DNA of 64,000 nt from NCBI GenBank assembly GCA_963971425.1, contig OZ020523.1:9854867-9918866 (forward strand), read 5' to 3'. A model generated the notes under the pieces. It saw only the letters and a list, made by a program, of their open reading frames with translations, was not told where the DNA came from and ran no database searches. Made by a program: the position numbers and the translations under genes. How positions within the stretch are numbered: the stretch's first letter is position 1; each line of letters begins with the position of its first letter. Of the stretch, positions 5,144 through 64,000 are shown piece by piece. The stretch is from Bryoerythrophyllum caledonicum (Eukaryota; Streptophyta; Bryopsida; Pottiales; Pottiaceae).

Positions 5144-6161
5144 TTTTTTTTCCATAGATTTGGACGAAACTGAAATGCCTATAAGTAATTTTCAACAATT
5201 CAAAACAACTTGAATTTTTTTTCCCTTGTAGATTGAATCTGGAGGTATCATCCCAATTTTTTTCGGATTTTTTTAATTTTTTCTCTTTTTTCTAAAAATC
5301 CTCAAAGGTCGCTGAAAGCACCATAGTGAAGATTTGCAGAATTTCTTCCGATTTCGTAGATTCTGGCCCCAGCTCTAAATCTGAATTTCAGTCATTAACA
5401 TGATATTTTGTGATTTTGAGTCCAAATAATGAAATGAAGTTTATGAAGCCTACTTTCCATTCCACTTTGAAAATATGAAAAATTTGAAAACAATTCAAAA
5501 AAATTTGTATAAATTTTGTAAAAAAGTCCGGGCATACTTTAGTGGTTTATTTGCTGAAATTAGCCAAGTCCGTAATTCTTTAATTGCATATTAATTTCAG
5601 ATTTAGAGCGGAAGCCACTTTTTGGCATTTCATCCGCAAGTTTTCATCCACTGTTTTCATTCCTGTACTGGCATTTCATTCGTTGATTTTTTGCCTTTTC
5701 ATCCGCTATGTTTTTGCCTCCTCATCCGTTGTTTTTACAAATTTCATCCGTTGTGATTTTCCATCAGCTGTGAATCGTCATCCTCTGTTTTCATCCGTGC
5801 TACGATTTTCATCTTTTGTGGATGAAACTGTAATTTCCGCAGATTCACTTAACAGTGAGTTAATAACTTCCAAAATAATAATTTTTTGGGAATTCCAACT
5901 TCGGATTTGAACTTTTTAGGTGTGTTTTCATCTAGTGTGAAAGAAAAAAAATCGGACTAATGATTTTAAAAATTGACATTTTGTAGAGTCTTAAAAATTA
6001 GGGGTTTACCTTTACAAGTCAAGGAAGCCACATTTGAGTTGTAACATGATGCTTTTGTGTATTTTTCTTAGAAGGTGTAAGCATTGATGTATATGAACAT
6101 ACACCGTATTGACGATTGTATATTGTTTGTGATTATGATCAGGTTTCTTGTATGTGACATC

Positions 6162-9100
6162 ATGGCGCCACCACTTCCAATCGAAAGGCGCTGGGAGGAG
6201 TATGGTTGGTGGATTGCAGTAGAGGCGGAGTCGAAGCCAGTATTGTGGCTCACGGAACATCCATTTCAAATAGGGATGCGCACATCAGCATTGGGGAAGC
6301 CCTTCGCTGAACTTCGTGGAATTAATCTTCGACCAGACGATATGGTCTATGCAGTTTGCGAACCGGGGGTTGGCCAAACGGCATCAAAGACTTCTCTTTC
6401 AAAGAAGTTGCTCCTAGCACCTGTTCCTACAGATCTCCTTCAAAATTCAAGGCGGGTGAATAACATAACCTCGTTACAGACGTTTTGGCTCAGCACGGAT
6501 CTTGCGGTGCGCACTGCTAGGCATGAGCATGTGTTGGCATGTTTGGCGTTATCTGAAGAAGATGAGGCACGCGCTAGAAGATTTATGAGTGCTCATACCA
6601 TGTACGAGGCATTACGGCGGACGGAGCCAGAGCGTGCAAGTGTTGAGCGTGCAAGTCTACCAGCGGATCCAGAGGAGACCGAGCCCATTTATCGCGCATT
6701 AGCAAGGCCGACACAGTTGGATTGGCGGCCGTCCACTGAACTGCCACCATCGCGTGTTCGTGCACCAACAAGTGGTCGTCCATCTAAGCGCCCACGACGT
6801 GAAGAGGGCAACAGAGCTCCAGATTCTGATGGACGGCCGTCGCGTGGCCGTTCGGAGACATCGCGTGGCCGCTCAGAGACATCGCGTGGCAGGGCCTCGA
6901 CATTGCGTGGCAGGGCATCGACGTCGCGGGGCAGGACATCGCCATTGCGTGGCAGGGGCCGTGAATCGATAGCTGGACAAGCCGAAACTCATCGTAGATC
7001 CTCAACATCTACAGCGGGTGTCTCTATGAGTTTATCGGCCATGGATGACGACTTGCACAACTATTCTGATTAGTCATTGGGAGATTCGGAGGAGGAGGCA
7101 GACATTCCAGCAACCGTTCCAACTTCTAGGCATTTGAAAGCGCCCGTACCTACGAAGGAGGAAGTTGCGAGAGGTTCTATATGGGGCGACATTGTGTTCA
7201 AGGCGCACATTGACCGCATCGTCGAAGTGGTGAATCCGGAGACAAACCATCGGATACTGTCACAGAAGAGGAAATCAGAAGTGTATCACTTCTTACGAGA
7301 TCCCCAGAACAGGACCGGAGTGAGTAAATTGGTACTTCGTCCAATCCGGTACCTCGTGGATATCACTACCGACACTGGCATGGTTGAACGTGAGGGAGTG
7401 GATTTCCCGGTTACTGGAGCAGCACGAGAGTTTGAACGGATGTTTTTAAGCCATGCGGGTGCTTCTATACACGGTACTGTGGGCTCTCAACTATCTTGGC
7501 TTCAAGAGCGTATCATTTGGGAGCCTGTGGACGGGCAACACGTCGTAGCTACTTCCAAGTATGCAAAGGAGCAGTGGATGAGCGGCAACATCCCTCTGTC
7601 TGAGTATCAGAAGACGTTTGAGGAGCGGGAGGCTACCTTTGTTGTGTACGATGATCGACGACTTTACATTAACAAGTCAGTACAGGTCAATAATGCGGAG
7701 TGGCAAAGAAAACAACTTTCCACAATGAATGAGGATTTGGTGAAGCTCCGACAGATATGGGATCTGTATGGTAGGCCTGATAGCTCGGTTCGGGCGGACG
7801 ATGAACGCAGGGCTATCGCACTGGTGAGCGCAGCAAGTGCCGTGCGGAAACTGCCTCACAGAGATGACAACAAGATTACAATGTCCACATTGGCAAAGGT
7901 CATGGAGGACCTAACCAAGCATGCTTGGAATCCCAGCAATGAGTGCTTTGAAGCTGCCCTTCAAGTCAGCAAGGACTACGAAAACGGCTTCTTGTTTTAC
8001 AACAAGGATGAGGAGAAGAGGTGGAAGGCTTTGGCACTGAAGAAGAACTTGGATCCGAATGCAGATGTTCGACCGAGGCGGAAGCGGATGACCGGACATT
8101 GGTTGAGGCCACTTGGGAGACTTCCAGATTCGTACTATCTGGAGGTTGCAAAGGCATGTACAGCTAAGCCAGTAGGCGAGGATGGACGTAGACCTCGTCA
8201 AGCACTTTACTTCAACGGCGTTAAAGACCAAAATCCAAGGACTCGTACCCTTGCCGGTGTATGTGAGCGCATTATGAGACGAGAAGCGGTGATGAATACC
8301 ATTCGGTGGTTGATGGTAGAGAACAAGGAATCTTCACCGAATTCCATGGAAGAGTTCTTTCGTATATCTGTACGGAAGTATTTGCCAGGAGGCAAGGAGC
8401 AACTTGACAAATTTGCCGAGCTGTTGGATAGCAAAACAAGAACCAAATGGGGTGCGCCGTAGCGAGAGAAGGTGTCAAAGCTGAAAGACATAAGCGACCT
8501 CGTCCCTCCTTTCATCAAGGTACATTATCAGGTTGTTGCAGCAAAGGGGCAAGGCCAGAATGCACCATCCGTACGTGAGGGAGTTGCAAACACTGCCAAT
8601 TGGGAGTGGCAGTTGCATGTTCGGAGGCCAGGCCAGAACGACACACAGGATCCGCTTCTGATTCGGTGTAGAAGAGGACTATTTCGTTCAGAGTATGCGG
8701 AGTTGACACGACCATACCTGTGGATTATTGATTGTCGCCGTGGCGGTGGAAGGCATGGCAACGGTCATTGGAAAGATGAACAATTCACCAGAATCTTTGC
8801 ACAACTGGCGTTATGGATGACGACCGTTGAACGATGGAACGTCATTTTCCTATTACCACCGGCTGTGTTCGCCACGGAAGAGCTGATTACGAAGTTGAAG
8901 CTCCCGGAGGGTTGCTCTCATCGGCGTGGATGTTGGGCGTTTGGTCAGACCTTGGTTGATCATCCTCTGAACTTTACAGAGGGAGGGCGCTTACAACAAG
9001 CAGTTGAACCAATGGGCGATATCATTATTTGTCTCCAACATCCAGCTGGATTGTCTGTTGAGGCGAATTTTATTACTGGCCGCCGTCCACTTCCTCTTTT

Positions 9101-10202
9101 ATTTGATGATAACCGTGGCGGAGCACGAGAGCCTTCTGTTGTTGATGCTCTCGAGAGATCTCCATCTGAATTATCAAGACTGGTGGGTTCGTACTTGCCT
9201 CGGGGTTGGGGTTTGGTGGTATGTAACATGTCAACAGCGATTCCGACTATACTACACTCGGATTTCCAGGGATCTGAGATCATTGTCATCGACGATTGCA
9301 GCGAGAGGATTTCGTTCTTGTACGGTGAGTTGACCAACAACTTCCAAGGGCATTTGTTGATGTCTAACAACATCGATGGAACGGACAATGCTCCCACTAG
9401 TGTGGATGCTACCGAAGATGCGATTCCTTTACGAACGGAAGGTGACGATGATGTGGATTTCTACACCCATTTGAACGAAAGATTGCCACGTGAATATGGG
9501 ACGGACGAATCCACGCCTGACAACCGCTCGCTCGACTCGCAGCGAAGCAGTGAAGCAGAAGAAGGGGAAGACGAGGAGGACGATGAAGAGGAAGACGAAG
9601 GTGAAGATGGGGGAGCACCTAGGAGAGACGTGGTTCTAACAACGCCGCCGCCGCATGTGGGAGTTTGTGTACACGAGACACCTGTTGGAATGGGGGATGA
9701 TACCAGGGTACTGGATGTTCCTTCAGAGGCACCAACAGATGGGATGAACACATCCATTTCTCAGCTGTCAGAATCAGAGCAGTGTACGACCGATTCTCTC
9801 ATGTTTTTTTCGGAGTTGAGTAGGGGTGGACCGTCTTTGGGGCCTATTCCATCAGAGCTTGGATCTGCGACACATGGGAGCGCTGAAGGTATTGGAGGTG
9901 GCACTGGACCAATATTGCCATCTGTTTCAAGACAGAGCGAACCGGAAGATGTTGCTGAATTTCGAGAGACCTTCACTGCACCGATGACATTTAGGGATGG
10001 CTTCTATTATGATGCAGATGGCGTAAGGCACACGCGGCACGGCGACCCTGGCAGCTACAGATATGAACAGTCTACATCAGTCAGTCTTGGAGATAGTCCG
10101 GTGCGAGAAGAGGAGTTGGCTGAAATGGTAAATACTGCCATGGAACACGCTACGGGAGTAATATCTCCATAGGATGATGAAGACTCTGAGGTCATACCGT
10201 AG
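6162..10202 (+). CDS. Locus A: ParB-like plus beta-class methyltransferase-like mobile-element gene, one frame interrupted by TAG codons
   Basis: One frame runs from ATG 6162 (the ATG follows gtgacatc) to about 10200 with no frameshift. It is broken only by TAG at 7071, 8460 and 10170, with a further TAG at 10200; the next in-frame TGA is at 10239. The N-terminal part has an Arg-Gly repeat region (RGRSETS-type units, 6840-6960). The middle part (7074-8459) has a ParB-like signature: VLRPIRY, then WEPVDGQHVVAT (DGQH at 7530-7541), then TFVVYDD. The third part has a motif-IV-like strand (LWIIDCRRGG, about 8719), helices, FLLPP, then SPSELSRLV and a motif-I-like strand followed by EIIVIDD, which is beta-class order. 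The canonical DPPY and FxGxG residues are missing, so catalysis is doubtful. The C-terminus is acidic (9560-9615). The product is unnamed; the layout matches locus B. Reading it as one protein requires the TAGs to be decoded or to be mutations. Confidence 0.6.
6843..6960 (+). repeat. In-frame 21-bp repeats encoding RGR-S/T units
   Basis: Six tandem copies of a roughly 21-bp unit starting cgtggc encode RGRSETS, RGRSETS, RGRASTL, RGRASTS, RGRTSPL and RGRGR. Arg-Gly repeats like these usually bind nucleic acid; here that is inference. Units differ at synonymous and non-synonymous sites, so the array is not recent. Confidence 0.8.
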
Positions 10203-54710: not shown

Positions 54711-56500
54711 CTGGAAGTCCAAATCCAGAAGTAATCTTGTTAGAACCCGCCGTACCAGAAAAGAGAAAATTTGAGAAAGAGCAGGTTTTATCACTCATGC
54801 GCAAATATGATTTAGCACTTCTCACACTGGAGAGGCATTTGTCGTAGAATATACAAAGGACGAACATCAGCAAAGGATCACTCTAGGATAGTGCTCCAGA
54901 CTGTTCATTTTGCAAGAACTTCTAGACATAAACTGTCAGGCATAAGAATTACTATCACGTATCAACCACCATTACACGAAAACAAAAATGTACAACCAAG
55001 AGTTGATTAATAAGCATACTTTCATGAATGTAAAACAAAGAGGATCTTATGGAAGTGTGCGTAAAAAATTCCAAAATTCCAGGTTCATGCACCTTTCAAT
55101 CTGCAATCGCACACATCTTCATAGCAATAGCCTTACGAACTGATAGTTACATCCATTATATTACAGCTCACCTCGAGCTCCTTAATTTCCTCTATTCCAT
55201 ACTGAATTATATAATGACTTACGAATTTTAATCTGTCCAAAACGATGAGTCACGCTTAGGATTCTCGAACTAATCATCTCTGTAATTCATATGAAAAGTC
55301 CTTCGCTTAAGCACCAATCCTTCTCAACAGTCTTATAGTCATAGTTCGAAGCGTATTCATGTTCACGTTCACAGAGGCCAGCTACACGGCGTCACGTACA
55401 CGACACCCGACGGCCACCATGATTAAGCGAATAAAGGCAATGACAATCAGAATTACTGCCAAAGAACACGTCTCTCAGACCAGTGAATGATCATCCAAAG
55501 GGAAAGAATATCGCAACTTCACTTCTGAGGCTGGCAAAGAGCCGAAAAAGAAACTAATCAAGCTCACAGTGCCAGAGCACACACAACAGCCTAACAACGT
55601 TCAATAACCAAAACCTGCGATTGCTGACACTTTCAAAAGTGTTTTCGCAACATATTCGTCTCCTAATGAACTCAACACGGAAATGCATCAATAAACGGCA
55701 ACGCACGAACTCCAACGCTTCGACTTCAGGTCTCCGATTGCTTCTCACCTGAGGAACGGGATGTACAGCTCGATGCATTGCGGACGCACTGATATCCTTC
55801 GTCAAGCAGCATATTTCCCCGATTAACTCCGCATTAATCTGCTCGATGCGCAAACAATAAACCACTTGTTGCCGCCTCCCAAATCTCCTCGACGGCTTGT
55901 TGCGTACTCTCCTCTCAAACAACCGCAACCTCGTCCTCGCTCCGCCTCCCGGAAAACAAAATCCACACTCAACCTAGCTTACCAGCGCCGTTACTGGAGG
56001 GATTCGAGAGCGGAACAGCTCACTGGAACGAGAATTCGCAGCTCGTCTCGATGCGCCTGCGATGCTGCCGCTCCGCCACTCGCCGTCCGCCCTCACGCAC
56101 AATGCACCAACTCTCCAAGCCCTCCATAGCCATCGCCTCAAAGCCCTTCACTCACTCTAATCACAAAGTTCCTAGATCGCATCTAAATATCAATACTTCA
56201 TATTTCCTAGATTTGGCGCAGATAAGTGCCCTAAACCATCACTTCACCCAAAACCAAATGTACGGTTAAATCTTGATATAAGCTAGATGAGGTAATTTGG
56301 TAGATTTCGGGGCCGTCATTAAGGCTGAGGGTTTGAAGTTTGAACTGCTACTAACATTGGCAGAGCTGTAATTAGTATGAGGGCGGTAGAATACGCAACC
56401 CGCATTCAAATACAATACAGTGATAGGGGAACTGGCACGTGTCCTGTGCATTTACAGCTCAAAAGACTTTCATAGACGGACAAACAAGTCCAAAACTGCC
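54711..56500 (-). promoter_or_regulatory. Upstream region of the F-box gene, probable 5' exon(s) and promoter
   Basis: Contains the missing first exon somewhere. A minus-strand ORF 55928-55554 and plus-strand ORFs at 55866-56269 are low-complexity and match nothing I recognise, likely leader sequence. GC content rises near 55.4-56.1 kb as expected for a transcription start. Confidence 0.4.
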
Positions 56501-57563
56501 ACTGTCATTAAGAGGCATGAAATCACATTTTAAAGTAAAGTTTTGGATTTTTAACCGTAAGATCTTGAAATAGAGTTCTATGTGAATATTTGATATTTGT
56601 TTGGTTGCAATTCACCGTACGGATTTGTAGATTTTAGCGTTTGAAGTGCCAAAAAAGCTTTTTTTTCCCCTTGTCCAACAATCAGGATTGCTAGGGCGTG
56701 AGCTATGAGCCATGAGCCATGAGCAGTGAGCCGTGAGCGATGAGCTATGAACAGTGATAGTCACAAAAAAATACCCTATTTTTTTAGAATATAATGGAGA
56801 ATCGAGGAAAAATAGCAATATGAAAGTCTATATCCGTGGAAAATTTGAACAACCTATACATGATGTAATGCCTATATCCGTGTAAATATGCTTCTAATTT
56901 CATTGTGTTAGTATCTATTCTCATTTTAGTCTTACATTGGTCCCCGTATTTTGACAACTGTTTTTAGTACTATCAATTATAAGGTGTTGTGATATATGTT
57001 TTTACCATTTTATCCTTGTATTTTTTAATATACTTGTTACTTATTTTCTCTATAATTATGGCCTTGACTTTTATAATATAAATCAATTTGACAAAAAATT
57101 CAATTATACATTGTTGTTTATTCTTTCCAAAAAAAATTGTTACGTTCATGAAATTATCTATTTCTCTCTAACCTTTATCATTTTTTAAAATACAATAATT
57201 GGTATAAATTTCTACTGCTTTGACTTACGTCTATATTAATTGTAGTATTCCCAAATTCTATGAAATTTGATACTAATAGAATGCTCTCTAGAGTTCACAA
57301 ACTAATCATGTAACTTATTTTTTATTATAAATTATGATATTTGCTATTTCTCTTTTACAAGCTATGCTAATATCTATTGAACAAATAAAGTATAGAAAAT
57401 AAAATGGATAATATAATGAATACACGTTACAAATTTGAAGTTAGGAAGACAATAAAAACATGAAACTGAGTACTAAAAATAAAAGGAATACTGCAATGTA
57501 AAAGACACGTACAAAGTGAACAAAGAAAATTTAGAAATGAAGAAGTATATGACAATAGCAAAA
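56500..57563. other. AT-rich intergenic DNA with a MITE relic and a GAGCYATG repeat
   Basis: 56520-56650 resembles the inside of the 954-bp TTAA MITE (TTTTTAACCGTA-GATCT and a CCGTACGGATT block) but has no recognisable ends. 56695-56757 repeats GAGCCATGAGC-type 7-8-bp units about eight times. 56780-57563 is featureless AT-rich DNA. Confidence 0.55.
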
Positions 57564-60500
57564 TTAGAAAGTAGAATTAAAACTATCATCACTATCCTCG
57601 CTAGCCTCAATCGCTTCAATATCCACAAACTGAACAATACGAGGGTCATAACGACGAGTATGAGACGATGGACTGGAAGATGGTAAAGTAGCTAATAATT
57701 GAGCTAAGTCTTTTACATGCGAAGGAAGTAGAAACGGTTTAGGAGGTGATTCGGCGTCCGCCATCAATCTACAATAAATCAAACATTAATGTCAATACTG
57801 AGCTTTAAAATATTTAAAGAATGCAAGAAAAAAATAATTCACAACTTACTTACTCAAACGGTTTTGTTTTGCAACATGACAAGCATGAATGTCATCCTCC
57901 TCCAAGTCGATATCCGCTTGCGAAGATACAACACTCTCTACCAATGGTGGCGCGTCTCGAAGTGGTGCAAGGATGGCCTCAAAAATAGCAGGATCCGCCT
58001 CAAAAACAACCAAATGGCGGCTTGAGCGGCGGCAAACGTGAATTGAGGCTTCTAAATTAAAAAAGAAAATATTAACCCTTAAGCGGGCCGAATGTCGAAA
58101 AACGACATTTTGGATGACTGGCAGAGACTTTGAAGAGCCATAACTTCTTCATCCAGACTCCGTTTTGGACGAAATTACTTGTGTTAGGTCCCAAATCAAG
58201 TCTAGTTTGTGTGGTAAAAATTGCAGAACCATACAATGAAGTATGAATTAATGGCATGCATTTTAGTGAAGGCAGCTCTTGTTTTTGGGTTTTCAAACAT
58301 GGGGCATGCTTTACCATGGCAAGCCAATTATGTGAAGTCCAATTTAGTTTTTCATGATTTTTTTGCATAAGTATGATCTTAAGATGAAATCCAACAACTT
58401 TGTAGTTGGAAGATTTTTGTTTTGAATAGTTTAGGTATTGGATTTGCAATGATGTTTCTATCTTGAAAAAACTAAAATAATACATGGTTTTTGAGGAGAA
58501 GTTTCTCATTCATCCACCGTTGGATTTCAATTTTGTTGGTTGGGTTGGATTTGAATTTGAATCTTGTTTTTGTAGTGAAAACCTCAATTCCATCCAAGAT
58601 GCAAGGAAGTTATGGCATTCACTTTTGTGCAAGGGGCCTAGTTTTGGACATTTTTTCCTTAGTAAAATTTAGGCAGATTTCACCATTGCAAGGCCATTAT
58701 TTGCGCAAAGAAATTAATCTCATGGTTTTTTTTTGTTCAAGGGTGTTATTGAGATGAAGGTTAACATCTTTGTTCTCTGGTGATTTTTTCATTGCAATAA
58801 GTCTATTGGTAGCATTTTCACTTCAAAGTGAAAATCTTGAGATTTTGTGATGTTTTCTGAATACTAATATGTTATGATCTCGCAATCTATGAGGCCTCAT
58901 GACTCAGAATTTGACCCACATGATGTACAATATGTCTACTACAAGATTGTACGGTTGAGATCTAAATAACTTACCTTTGTTTCCATTTATGACACTTTTT
59001 TTGAGAATGTGTTCTTTTTGCTACAAATGAATCAAACCATTTAGGGGTTAATGGAACTCTACATCATCAAGGATTTAAACATCAAACATATCAAAATTAC
59101 CTGTAGAAGCATAGACATCAAGAATGACACCACCTAGCTTGATTAGAGCTTGAATAAGAATTTGTAATAAAATTGGATCTTTCTCCCGGCCTCCTCTCCA
59201 AAGAACAATTTCATTCATGATCTGTGATGCTTCTGATACAAAGTTGAAGAGAACATCATCCTCGCCAAGGTTGGTAGTGCCATCAAACAATGGTTGGTCT
59301 TGTTGAAAGGAGAACTAAGAACTTGATGGTTGCGAATTATGAATAAGGAGAAGGATGCAAAAACGTCGTGTCTATCCAAAAACAATAGTGTTGTTAAAAT
59401 AAATAAGTGAGAAAATAATATTATAGAAAGAGTAGAGATAGGGAAACACACTGAGATTGACTGGTTTGTTGGAGATGTCAATTGGAGTTCATTGATCCCC
59501 CACCAATCTTTGATGATTTTGAAGTCATAAGTCTTTGCATATGTACGTACGTCTGCTCGAATGGTCATTGACTCAGGCATAAAGATAAGTAAAGATGCAT
59601 GAATTTGCAAGTAGTAATGAGCAAAAATTAAGATAGCTTCTAATTCAGACACATTATACGTATTCCATTGCGGAATGTTATTCGTAGGAGATGAAATCTT
59701 CGGAACCGATAAACCTTCGGGAATGTCAATAATGATGAGATCAAATCTATCATGAGGGCACGATGCAGAACGCACCTGAGTTCCTCGACCTTTTCCAACC
59801 TACACATATAAAATATAACAAACATTAATTAACCACTCCAAAAAATTATCACTCTCAAGAAGGCAATAAACCACTCTAAAAAATTATAACAAATTAAATA
59901 TTAGTTATAGCAATATAAATGATTATAAATAAAACTACATACCATTGAAACGAAATCATGCATCTTCTTTATAAGAGGATGATTGCTCCCACATTCTATC
60001 AATGTGAAAATTGAAGTATTTTCAACAAGAATTTTTGTTGAAGAGACCATAGAAGAAGAAGCAATACACGCAGCATTTTTCTTGGCGTGAATATTAGTCT
60101 GATAAACCTGGTTGGCATTGGTGGCCTGAGAAGGAATTGATGAATTTACTAAATTCAATAAATTAGGTGGGGCAATCACCCCACTGCCATCCTCAGGAAT
60201 AATAGTCGTAGTTGAAATCTGAGTTACCTTTGAAGCTTCAGATGCCTTGGATGCCTTGGATGACTTTGTTGCCTTTATAATCTTTGTTGTTGTTGTTGAA
60301 TCTGTTGCCTTTGTTGTCATTGTTGGCTTTCTCTTCCCTTTCTTAGCTGTTACTAGTACCGCAACAACTTTGGAGGCATCCAATACATCATCTGCATCGT
60401 TTTCAGATACAACAGAAGAGACCTTGGCTTTTAATTCTACCTTCTCTTCTTCCTCCTCTGCAGGACTAAATGCAGGTAGACAATCTAAGTACCATGCTCC

Positions 60501-62719
60501 ATTCTGTAAATGAGCAAGACTCCACTTTTGAATGTGCATTGAAGTGTAGATACAAAGTGGAGACGCCTTGTCTGTCCAAGATGATAAAAATGGTGGTAAA
60601 GATTGTAGAAGTATAGTCTTCTTGGCCACCAACTCCTTACATAGATATCTACACAAAAAATTCAATAAAAAATTAGTTCTTATGAAATGAGATAATGTGA
60701 AATCAAATTTATAAGTTGATAATATTACCTGAATAAGACACGCTTGATAGCTAGAATACCAGTTGCCATATCAACGAGTTTAGATGATTTTGTGAAGGGG
60801 GTCTCAGCTTAAAAGAAAGGAATGAAATCCTTCTTCCAAACTGCAATACTCCAATGCTCCACGTATTTACCAATCCTCAAAATTCTAGGTGATGCCTCCC
60901 AATTAATGGGACCAAGATTGGGCGACATATCCTCAAACTTATGCATCACAACATCCTCCAACTAATAATACATAATAACATATATTGTATTTAGTCAATT
61001 TGATATTATGTTGTTAGTAGAGATGTAAGAAAAACCAATATATAGTACTCAAAATAATATGAAAATGGAACTAACATGAGCCCAAAATGTGGCACGAATA
61101 AGCCATAGATCAAAGACTGTTTCTTTAACAGCACCAGTTGGAAACCGTAGAGACTCTCGAGTCATCTTGGATGAATTCCACCATTTGAGCCAACATCCTT
61201 TGAACTTAGCATCAACCATTGCAGTAGCTACCTTCTGTAATTTTTCGAGGGTCATATCTGGCTTCGGAACATTGTTCCAATGTCTTGTGATCTAATAGAC
61301 AAAAATATATCACCAACATGAGATAACAAATAAAAAATAAATACAAGTTGAAAAGTATGGATCGAATAGAATTCAATACCTAGTAAAGGAAATCTGATCC
61401 ATTTTTAGGATCTGCCACTGCCAATAACTTTTCAAACTCATGGCTACAAATACTTTAGATAAATGCCTTTGCAGCCTTGTCCATTGCTTTCCAAACCCCT
61501 TTTAGCAGTTTGCTCCTCAATAGACATGTTTGCCTTATATTCTTGGCAAGCCTCATCAGATGCAGAAGCAATCTCTCGCTACAAAGGAAATGATTATTAA
61601 AAAAAATTAGCTAGAAAATGTAATATGAATCAGTATAAAATAATGCAAATGTACTCACCCGATAGAGGAAAGATATAAACACATTGATGGTCAATGTGTA
61701 CCAAGTGCGAGAATTCTTTTTGAATTTTTCACAAGTCATGAAATCCGCGTCCGGAATAAGAGTCTTGAAATCAGCCACAAATAAAACTCCGAAATGTTGG
61801 ATTTGGTGCAGCTTGTGCACTTAATTAGTTTTAATATAATCAAGCTCCGTCGACCTACAAATAAAGGTAAATAACTAGTTAATTATACTTTCAAATTATG
61901 CAATGAAAGTATAAGAAACAATACACATCATTAAATTGAATAAGAGTTCACTCACCTATTCACATCATTCATAGCATCGAGAAGGGGACCCAAAGTCCCT
62001 CGAGCATCAATACAAATGCATTCAATATGCCGATAGAAATTGGATTCATAACGATCTCCTGAATAATTCTTCTCAATATATCTCCACCACGCAGTGAACC
62101 GATGATTGCCCTCCCAAATGTAAAGCATTTTACCATGAAGGCATGAAAGTTCAGGATTGTTTTTTACTTCTTCATCAAATCGCTCACTGGCATCTTTCCA
62201 ATGGGCACTTTAAGTAGATGAGACCATTGGAGAGGCTTCATAAATTTGGCCAATCTCATTATAAATGGATACATATAGAGGACGGTCTCCAGAACGGTAG
62301 CCATTCACAAATTCTGCCTCAAGTTTCTTCACACCTTGATCAAGAATTGGTCTTATCAGTGGAAGAGGAATTAGCCGACATAATGGGATCAACACCCTAG
62401 CGTGGGACGGATGAACTTAAAGGCTTGAAAGGAAGCCAAAAAAATCGGGCTTTTGTTCTTTTCTGACCTAAGTCTCAACGGCATCCAAGTCTACCACCTC
62501 TTCGGAAAATTTTGCCTCTGCAATGTTTGTAACATCTTCCATGTCCTCATGAATCACATTAGCCTCCTTCGTTGCACTTGATGGTGCTGTAACATCCCCC
62601 ATGTCCTCCGATGGAATTGGACTTAAACTTGGTTGCCTCTCCTGATAGTGCATCAAATTAAAAATCATTAGAATATTAGACTCGACCGCGACACTTAAAG
62701 TGAGTCTAACAGTCCACAA
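57564..62719 (-). pseudogene. Locus B: intron-bearing ParB-like plus beta-class methyltransferase-like gene with eight in-frame TAR stops
   Basis: Exons (plus coordinates): 62719-61956, 61854-61659, 61578-61380, 61291-61076, 60961-60729, 60648-59943, 59799-59452, 59371-59101, 58051-57850, 57768-57564. Splice sites and phases all agree. ParB-like part: RPILDQGVKKLEAEF, GDRPLYVSIYNE, then LYIWEGNHRFTAWWRYI (EGNHR at 62113-62099). Next HWNNVPKPDMTLEKLQ, a Lys/Ser/Thr-rich linker (KATKSSKASKASEAS), a motif-IV-like strand FDLIIIDIPEG (59727-59713), LLIFMPES, then GGVILDVYASTG and RHLVVFEADPAIFEAIL, as in N6/N4 methylases of beta order. Canonical DPPY is DIPE, so activity is doubtful. Stops: TAG 62468, TAA 62417, TAA 62210, TAA 61821, TAA 61455, TAG 61380, TAA 60809, TAG 59315. 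One frameshift lies at an A4G4 run in exon 3. The true start is unclear (62719, 62668 or 62653). Confidence 0.68.
58072..59051. mobile_element. TTAA MITE (980 bp) filling intron 8 of locus B
   Basis: TTAACCCTTAAGCGGGCC at the left, TTTAGGGGTTAA at the right, TTAA on both sides. Without it the intron between exons 8 and 9 would be about 70 bp, like other small introns. Noncoding. Confidence 0.75.
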
Positions 62720-64000
62720 GGCAGATTTTGGTTGCCCTCTCTAGACCTTGGTAGTAAGGACGAGAGTGAGTAATTGAGGTGAAGAGGGAGTCAGGGTAGT
62801 GCGGTTGGCACAGTAAGAGAGAGAGAGTCGAAGTAAGAGAGAGAGTGAAAGTATAAATTGGAGGAAGGTTCCTCCGGAAGAACTCCGTGAATAGAAATTG
62901 ACGACTCTGAAAAGACTATTGGAGAGGAAAAGCAGCTATCACTTCACGCCCTAAACAAGGGACTCGACACCGAGACAATACTCCTATGCTCTTTATCGCC
63001 TATGCTCACAATGTGCCTGGTCATTTTATCACAATGCGTCTGGTCTACGTTGTGTTACACGCCTACTCTACATTATCATACACGTCTGGTCATTGTGATA
63101 CGCGCCCTAATTTCACGCACGTGATACACAATGCGACTTCACGCATATGCAACTTCACGCATATGCAACTTCACGCATATGCAACTTCACCCAGTGTTCA
63201 CGCGCCTGGTCCTCAATGTTCGTCATGTAATCGACATGCATGAAAGACGCTTGAACTTGGACAAACTCCTTGAACCAAAACTGACAACCCCCGAAAGCTG
63301 ACGACCTGCACCAATTTCACGAGCTTTGGCACCTCGTTCACAAGGGTCTCGGCACCGAGAGACTTCTAAAGTGAGACTCACAGCACCGCTGAAAACTCAA
63401 GCCAAACTATAGATCAGGCGAAGATGGGTCTCGTGAGCACTGAAGATGGGTCTCGTGAATTTTGTTGATCAGGCGCGCGAACACTTGGTGGTGTGCTACT
63501 TGGATAATCATACGCCTGAGCACGGACGCCGCTGCAGATTAGATCAGGTAGTCTCCCTTGTGCGGATTAATATCTCGCAGCATTGCCAGAGCTGCAAAGT
63601 AGTAGGATTTAATTCAGCATGACTCGGAAAACATGAACGTGCGTTGAACTCATGCAAGTTATACCCTGTTATTACTTGACTAGGGATTGACGTAAAGCTG
63701 CAGAGACGGAGTCGGGAATCGGAAACACATCCTGCGCCTGGGACACAAGAACCTCTTGCCAACTTCCTTCTAGGTCTGGCTGCAAGATGTAGGGGAACAC
63801 TCACTGGCCTTCTCGCAATCCATACTCCTCCACTACTCCTTCACCAAGCTACATGTCACAAAACCTCTGAAAAGAATCATGAATGACGCTAACACAGAAA
63901 ATATCTCTAGATTCAATCAGTAAAAGATTAATCAGAACATATTTTCTAGATCCTGTCTAACCTGGCGACGTCAGCATATATCGCTTCAATACCACCAATA
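62720..64000. other. Upstream of locus B; 16-bp tandem repeat, no gene recognised
   Basis: 62750-62860 is GAGAGTGA-rich. 63136-63190 is just over three copies of a 16-bp unit (acttcacgcatatgca). The rest has short ORFs only. Further 5' exons of locus B might lie here but I see no domain. Confidence 0.5.

Follow-up and report, generated by a model that had tools for sequence, protein, structure and literature searches.

At the end of a 64,000-nucleotide window (contig C11, positions 9854867-9918866) of a plant-like genome, ten exons on the minus strand, here called locus B, form a pseudogene: the dead copy of an accessory gene that belongs to a DNA transposon. The gene joins a ParB-like domain to a methyltransferase-like domain, and the element family that carries it is very numerous and recently mobile in the genome searched (437 Mb in 894 contigs). 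The reading that we favour, at slightly better than even confidence, is that locus B derives from a large transposon resembling Mutator-like elements (MULEs), and that the encoded protein would mark, bind or un-silence its own element. An earlier note on the window described the gene as eukaryotic and knew of no plant nuclear family of this kind; the borders, copies and duplications described below assign it to a DNA transposon with many copies, as its accessory gene, rather than to a host gene family. Positions are given in window numbering unless a contig or locus is named.

The peptides quoted in the earlier note are found in the predicted order on ten exons with GT...AG borders, and these exons recur throughout the genome. 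Exon 1 (61956..62641) encodes the ParB-like domain (RPILDQGVKKLEAEF, RPLYVSI, IWEGNHRFTAWW); it is followed by exons 2 (61659..61854), 3 (61380..61578), 4 (61076..61291) and 5 (60729..60961), and by the low-complexity linker of exon 6 (59943..60648). Exon 7 (59452..59799) contains the motif IV-like strand FDLIIIDIPEG and the region of motifs V-VII, exon 8 (59101..59371) motif X and the start of motif I (REKDPILLQ..GGVILDVYAST), and exon 9 (57854..58051), whose 3' border is approximate, the end of motif I and motif II (HLVVFEADP). Exon 10 (57564..57768) is the last; an open relative elsewhere in the genome splices a few bases beyond the border drawn for exon 9. When joined, the exons of locus B do not yield a single open frame: three in-frame stops lie in exon 1, one each in exons 2, 5 and 8, and two in exon 3 together with a frameshift. 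The open relative (contig C4, loci L049, L047, L035 and L048), by contrast, possesses the same ten exons in an open frame of 1097 codons, counted without a modelled start codon. Hence, the ten-exon model holds for the family, of which locus B is a dead copy. Spliceosomal introns, also predicted, are present in both, those of the relative being GT-AG as well. Protein identity between the two ranges from 56 to 87% per exon. The end of motif I (VYASTG) spans the junction of exons 8 and 9, and after splicing it reads STE in locus B and STG in the open relative. Intron 8 of locus B (58052-59100) is about 1 kb long, compared with 80 bp in the relative, and the extra length is probably a later insertion.

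The ends of the element were read from an alignment of a closer relative to locus B and the 20 kb beyond the window. The element spans 56683-74704 (18,022 bp): the part at 56683..64000 lies in the window, and the remainder ends 10.7 kb past the window end, at L002:704. It is flanked by a perfect 10-bp target-site duplication, GTCCAACAAT, at 56673..56682 and at 74705-74714 (L002:705-714). The low terminus (56683..56760) begins with CAGGATTGCTAGGG and continues as an array of TGAGC-containing units. Its terminal 250 bp contain seven TGAGC, where 500 resamplings reach at most three. Such arrays lie just inside both ends in all three elements compared, with 5+5, 8+7 and 4+7 TGAGC per terminal 250 bp at the two ends; first-order resampling (500 per end) averaged 0.28-0.40 and never exceeded 3. 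The ends themselves are short, imperfect inverted repeats; a search for inverted repeats within 55000-64000 found no convincing terminal pair, the element extending beyond the window. Duplications of 10 bp flank all five insertions examined.

A genome search with the exon-7 peptide (116 amino acids) as a probe, in which 150 of 1552 candidates were scored, gave at least 151 matches, and every one among the matches listed has an E value of 4.6e-31 or less. Twelve sites share an identical score (116.7 bits, 49% identity, an open frame of 228 amino acids), which indicates a recent burst. Two burst copies, on contigs C1 and C4, align with 99.8% identity as blocks of 6343 and 5862 columns, separated by about 20 unaligned bases; they end together on both sides, and each has its own 10-bp duplication (CTTCGTGTCT and GGCGGTCGAG). 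The C1 copy measures 12,222 bp. The closer relative of locus B measures 14,319 bp; its copies on C4 (compared whole) and C8 (compared at the two ends) are 99.6-99.7% identical in the compared parts and are flanked by CTTTTGGTAC and GTGATGTGAA. Copies that are 99.6-99.8% identical thus occupy unrelated sites, and in one of these young copies all ten exons are open.

A transposase-like gene lies on the opposite strand and diverges from the ParB-methyltransferase gene in all three elements (the L042 copy, the L047 copy and locus B). At locus B it occupies 70601-73067 (L001:6601-9067), where six pieces could be matched to the gene of the open relative, with 36-66% identity. By eye, we recognize the patterns DSTY ... 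FMADSA ... CLFHW and a C-terminal CxC..CxH, which in our judgement are reminiscent of MULE transposases. MULEs are characterized by target-site duplications of 8-11 bp, terminal inverted repeats and a transposase with a SWIM finger. The terminal inverted repeats and the 10-bp duplications agree with this description, and we take the length of the latter to fit a MULE. The locus B element is accordingly termed MULE-like by duplication length and transposase patterns.

For the N-terminal domain, a model of exon 1 of the open relative predicts a ParB/Noc-type fold, in line with the earlier note, although the PF02195 profile itself is silent (no match in a genome scan at E ≤0.001). The GxxR motif of the nucleotide pocket is present as GNHR in all 11 members; across 71 sequences the G and the R are invariant (71/71), and the N and the H are each conserved in at least 90%. 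Compared with the N-terminal domains of bacterial ParB, Noc and KorB (PDB 7bm8, 7bnk, 7ng0, 8qa9), identity is only 11-19%, and the transposon protein differs by a helical insert between two strands and by the lack of a Pfam match. A sequence search of the PDB with the ParB alignments retrieved no ParB chain; two matches were taken as chance, namely MdbA (E 1.5) and, in the W..W..N..F insert of exon 1 (alignment A3), the ribosomal protein eL24 (E 0.0056). For the ParB part, a protein database search with an alignment of other copies retrieved 368 relatives. Among the 120 listed, the only organism named is a moss, Ceratodon purpureus, hence the designation plant-like for the present genome; its protein M758_UG129100 is encoded on a 112-Mb record that we assume, from the protein tag, to be the U chromosome.

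The beta-class methyltransferase-like domain anticipated by the earlier note is recognized by profile, with its motifs in the permuted order IV, X, I, II. All six subfamilies match PF01555 at E ≤1 (best 1.9e-7), the first subfamily member with E 0.0017 and 18.8 bits, below the Pfam cut-off of 26.7 bits. Profile matches in the PDB include DpnA (2e-4), CcrM (8.3e-4, columns 49 to 214) and RsrI (about 5.4e-3), and locus B itself aligns to a phage methylase profile with an hhalign probability of 71.7% (reversed control, 0.3%). These beta-class N6-adenine methyltransferases share the motif order and the sequence of motifs X-I-II with the transposon family, in which, however, their DPPY is replaced. 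Motif IV was scored in 50 loci, i.e. the 30 best matches and 20 chosen divergent copies with no stop flagged in the exon. D-x-P-[E/D]-G is found in 40 of them (31 DIPEG, 4 DVPEG, 1 DLPEG, 3 DFPDG, 1 DIPDG); the remaining ten comprise six DIPKG, one DIPQG, one HIPEG, one NILER and one in which the motif was not found. The altered tetrapeptide DIPE, which had been attributed possibly to decay, is therefore real but conserved in the family. A protein database search with the spliced, broken locus B gave no match at E ≤10 among 6706 candidates, and alignments of other copies retrieved 13 relatives at E ≤1, five of which cover the motif (DIPEG, DIPEA, DIPEG, DLPEG, DLPEG). The ratio of nonsynonymous to synonymous substitution rates (dN/dS) in exon 7 (96 codons, 11 sequences) was computable for 15 of 55 pairs and ranges from 0.03 to 0.24, a rough estimate with dS above 1 in several of the 15; the other 40 pairs are saturated at synonymous sites. 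These values indicate that purifying selection has long maintained the domain, including its odd motif.

A scan of the genome with PF01555 (150 of 235 candidates scored) gave at least 84 matches at E ≤1, of which eight exceed the Pfam cut-off. These eight loci constitute a sister family, in which six have DQPF and the other two fall outside the pattern used. At the one locus whose upstream region was examined, the ParB part is present, with DGNHR. The sister family also looks mobile.

According to the model that we propose, the element carries two divergent genes, one transposase-like and the other the ten-exon gene, whose predicted product of about 1100 residues would consist of the ParB/Noc-type domain, a middle region, the low-complexity linker and the permuted methyltransferase-like domain. 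Inside the nucleus, this protein would work on the DNA of the element that encodes it. Its ParB part may direct loading to specific sequences, for which the TGAGC-rich arrays inside both ends are the simplest candidates, and the methyltransferase-like part may bind S-adenosylmethionine (AdoMet) and either place an N-methyl mark on the element or serve as a non-catalytic reader. The element would thereby be relieved of silencing by the host or licensed to transpose, by analogy with the VANC proteins of VANDAL transposons. This likeness, together with a suggestion made for a related Ectocarpus protein (see below), leads us to consider anti-silencing or self-marking the most likely role. There is a more specific version, in which the transposon has recruited a clamp of the bacterial partition type whose ParB domain loads at the arrays and spreads over the element, while the AdoMet-using domain, with D-x-P-[E/D]-G as a novel active-site motif, writes or reads a mark that distinguishes element from host and so defeats plant silencing; we regard it as rather improbable.

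Several results weigh against the favoured reading. The Pfam ParB family matches none of the 11 members at E ≤10, and the ParB part is linked to the terminal arrays by position only. Locus B alone remains below the PF01555 cut-off (E 0.012, 16.0 bits), and not one of the 50 loci scored, among which one could not be read, shows the canonical tetrapeptide [DNS]PP[YFW], which renders catalysis doubtful for this clade. The transposase pieces match no MULE or other transposase family in Pfam at E ≤1, a SWIM-like finger with E 0.48 falling below the cut-off. Of the two burst copies, the one on C1 has its ParB exon interrupted by an in-frame stop and the one on C4 does not, so that some young copies are already broken; and among 20 genome stretches examined for exon 1, ten contain a complete open ParB exon, four a partial one, and six lack the GxHR motif.

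Alternative readings concern the part played by the methyltransferase-like domain. It may be catalytically dead, with an AdoMet-binding or structural role, so that the protein would in effect be a ParB-type clamp that shields or activates the element; we give this possibility somewhat less than an even chance. It agrees with the replacement of the DPPY-type tetrapeptide in the 40 loci and in the five database relatives, and with the retention of motif I (LD..ASTG or close) and of the motif II acid. However, the loss of an aromatic residue is no proof of inactivity, and the sister family, with the same architecture, has DQPF, which is near DPPF, and a motif X-I-II part above the Pfam cut-off, so that enzymes may persist. 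The converse, in which the protein is active as an N4-cytosine or N6-adenine methyltransferase and gives the transposon a mark of bacterial type, is in our view unlikely. It would account for the permuted motif order, the matches to DpnA, CcrM and RsrI and the DQPF of the sister family, and in the excerpted text on Ectocarpus N4-methylcytosine (4mC) or N6-methyladenine (6mA) is predicted for the protein of that alga (PMC12477816); it is the missing canonical tetrapeptide that speaks against it.

Two further explanations would leave the protein without a role for the element or place its origin elsewhere. A host gene captured as a Pack-MULE-type passenger has a parallel in giant Ectocarpus families with genes non-homologous to transposases, which are likened to Pack-MULEs in the same excerpt (PMC12477816). 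Yet six subfamilies, 45-60% identical to the first, have all retained the methyltransferase-like part, and the dN/dS values are low where computable; we consider such a capture very unlikely. Even less credible is a viral insertion, e.g. from a giant virus, despite the ParB-methylase fusion of Bacillus cereus and the ParB domains in phage polyvalent proteins mentioned in part of PMC5512222. Against it stand the transposon borders and the 10-bp duplications. Moreover, viral contigs searched with locus B and both alignments provided no confirmed relative, and tblastn against phages gave only two weak matches for the methyltransferase part (best E 0.4) and, for the ParB piece, 25 records, all at E ≥4 and mostly homing endonucleases.

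The window contains other reading frames. Locus A (6081-10172, plus strand) was rejected as a homolog of locus B, with no significant BLAST similarity and no Pfam family; its last third aligns to the phage methylase profile with an hhalign probability of 0.3%. In it, stop-to-stop frames of 330, 462 and 569 amino acids follow one another in a single reading frame; by eye, they include a PVDGQH stretch as well as strands that resemble motifs IV and I. At 129-2204 on the minus strand, an open frame of 691 amino acids matches Pfam DUF7869 (E 1.2e-45) and possibly encodes another mobile-element protein. PPR-like and kelch-like reading frames were also seen by eye, as were, adjoining the C1 burst copy outside the window (L043:2799-8650), hAT-like and gypsy-like ones.

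A ParB-methyltransferase architecture in a transposon is already known from algae: the excerpt of PMC12477816 reports such proteins from brown, red and green algae. The leading matches of our literature search included no account of it in a land plant, and PMC12695648, on adenine methylation, mentions neither 'ParB' nor 'land plant'. What is new is the conserved non-canonical motif IV alongside a DQPF sister family and, as far as the class label and the structure model indicate, a MULE-like carrier that reaches very high copy number in a plant-like genome, and structural support for the ParB part. Accessory proteins that we have so far found reported from algal transposons thus also travel, in such a genome, with a very numerous and recently mobile family. 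As some of its copies are open and have defined ends, repeats at the termini and a conserved non-canonical motif, escape from silencing becomes directly testable, and the model moss is easy to transform.

The closest known system is Sola1-1_Ec32 of Ectocarpus, whose accessory protein combines a ParB-like with an N4/N6 methyltransferase domain; similar proteins occur in green and red algal transposons, and the authors suggest that they bind the transposon that encodes them and modify it epigenetically (PMC12477816, in excerpt). As in that system, both domains reside in one protein of about 1100 amino acids, encoded by a giant DNA transposon whose transposase gene lies on the other strand. Compared by description, not by sequence, the present family differs in its transposon type (10-bp duplications), its plant-like genome and its conserved D-x-P-[E/D]-G. 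The second system is that of the VANDALs, which are MULEs. VANC proteins counteract the silencing of these Arabidopsis transposons and target short motifs that lie outside the coding parts of the element and often form tandem repeats; the excerpt of PMC5735166 mentions no ParB or methyltransferase domain for them. The likeness is one of arrangement: an accessory gene of a plant DNA transposon combined with short repeats, which here lie at both ends of the element.

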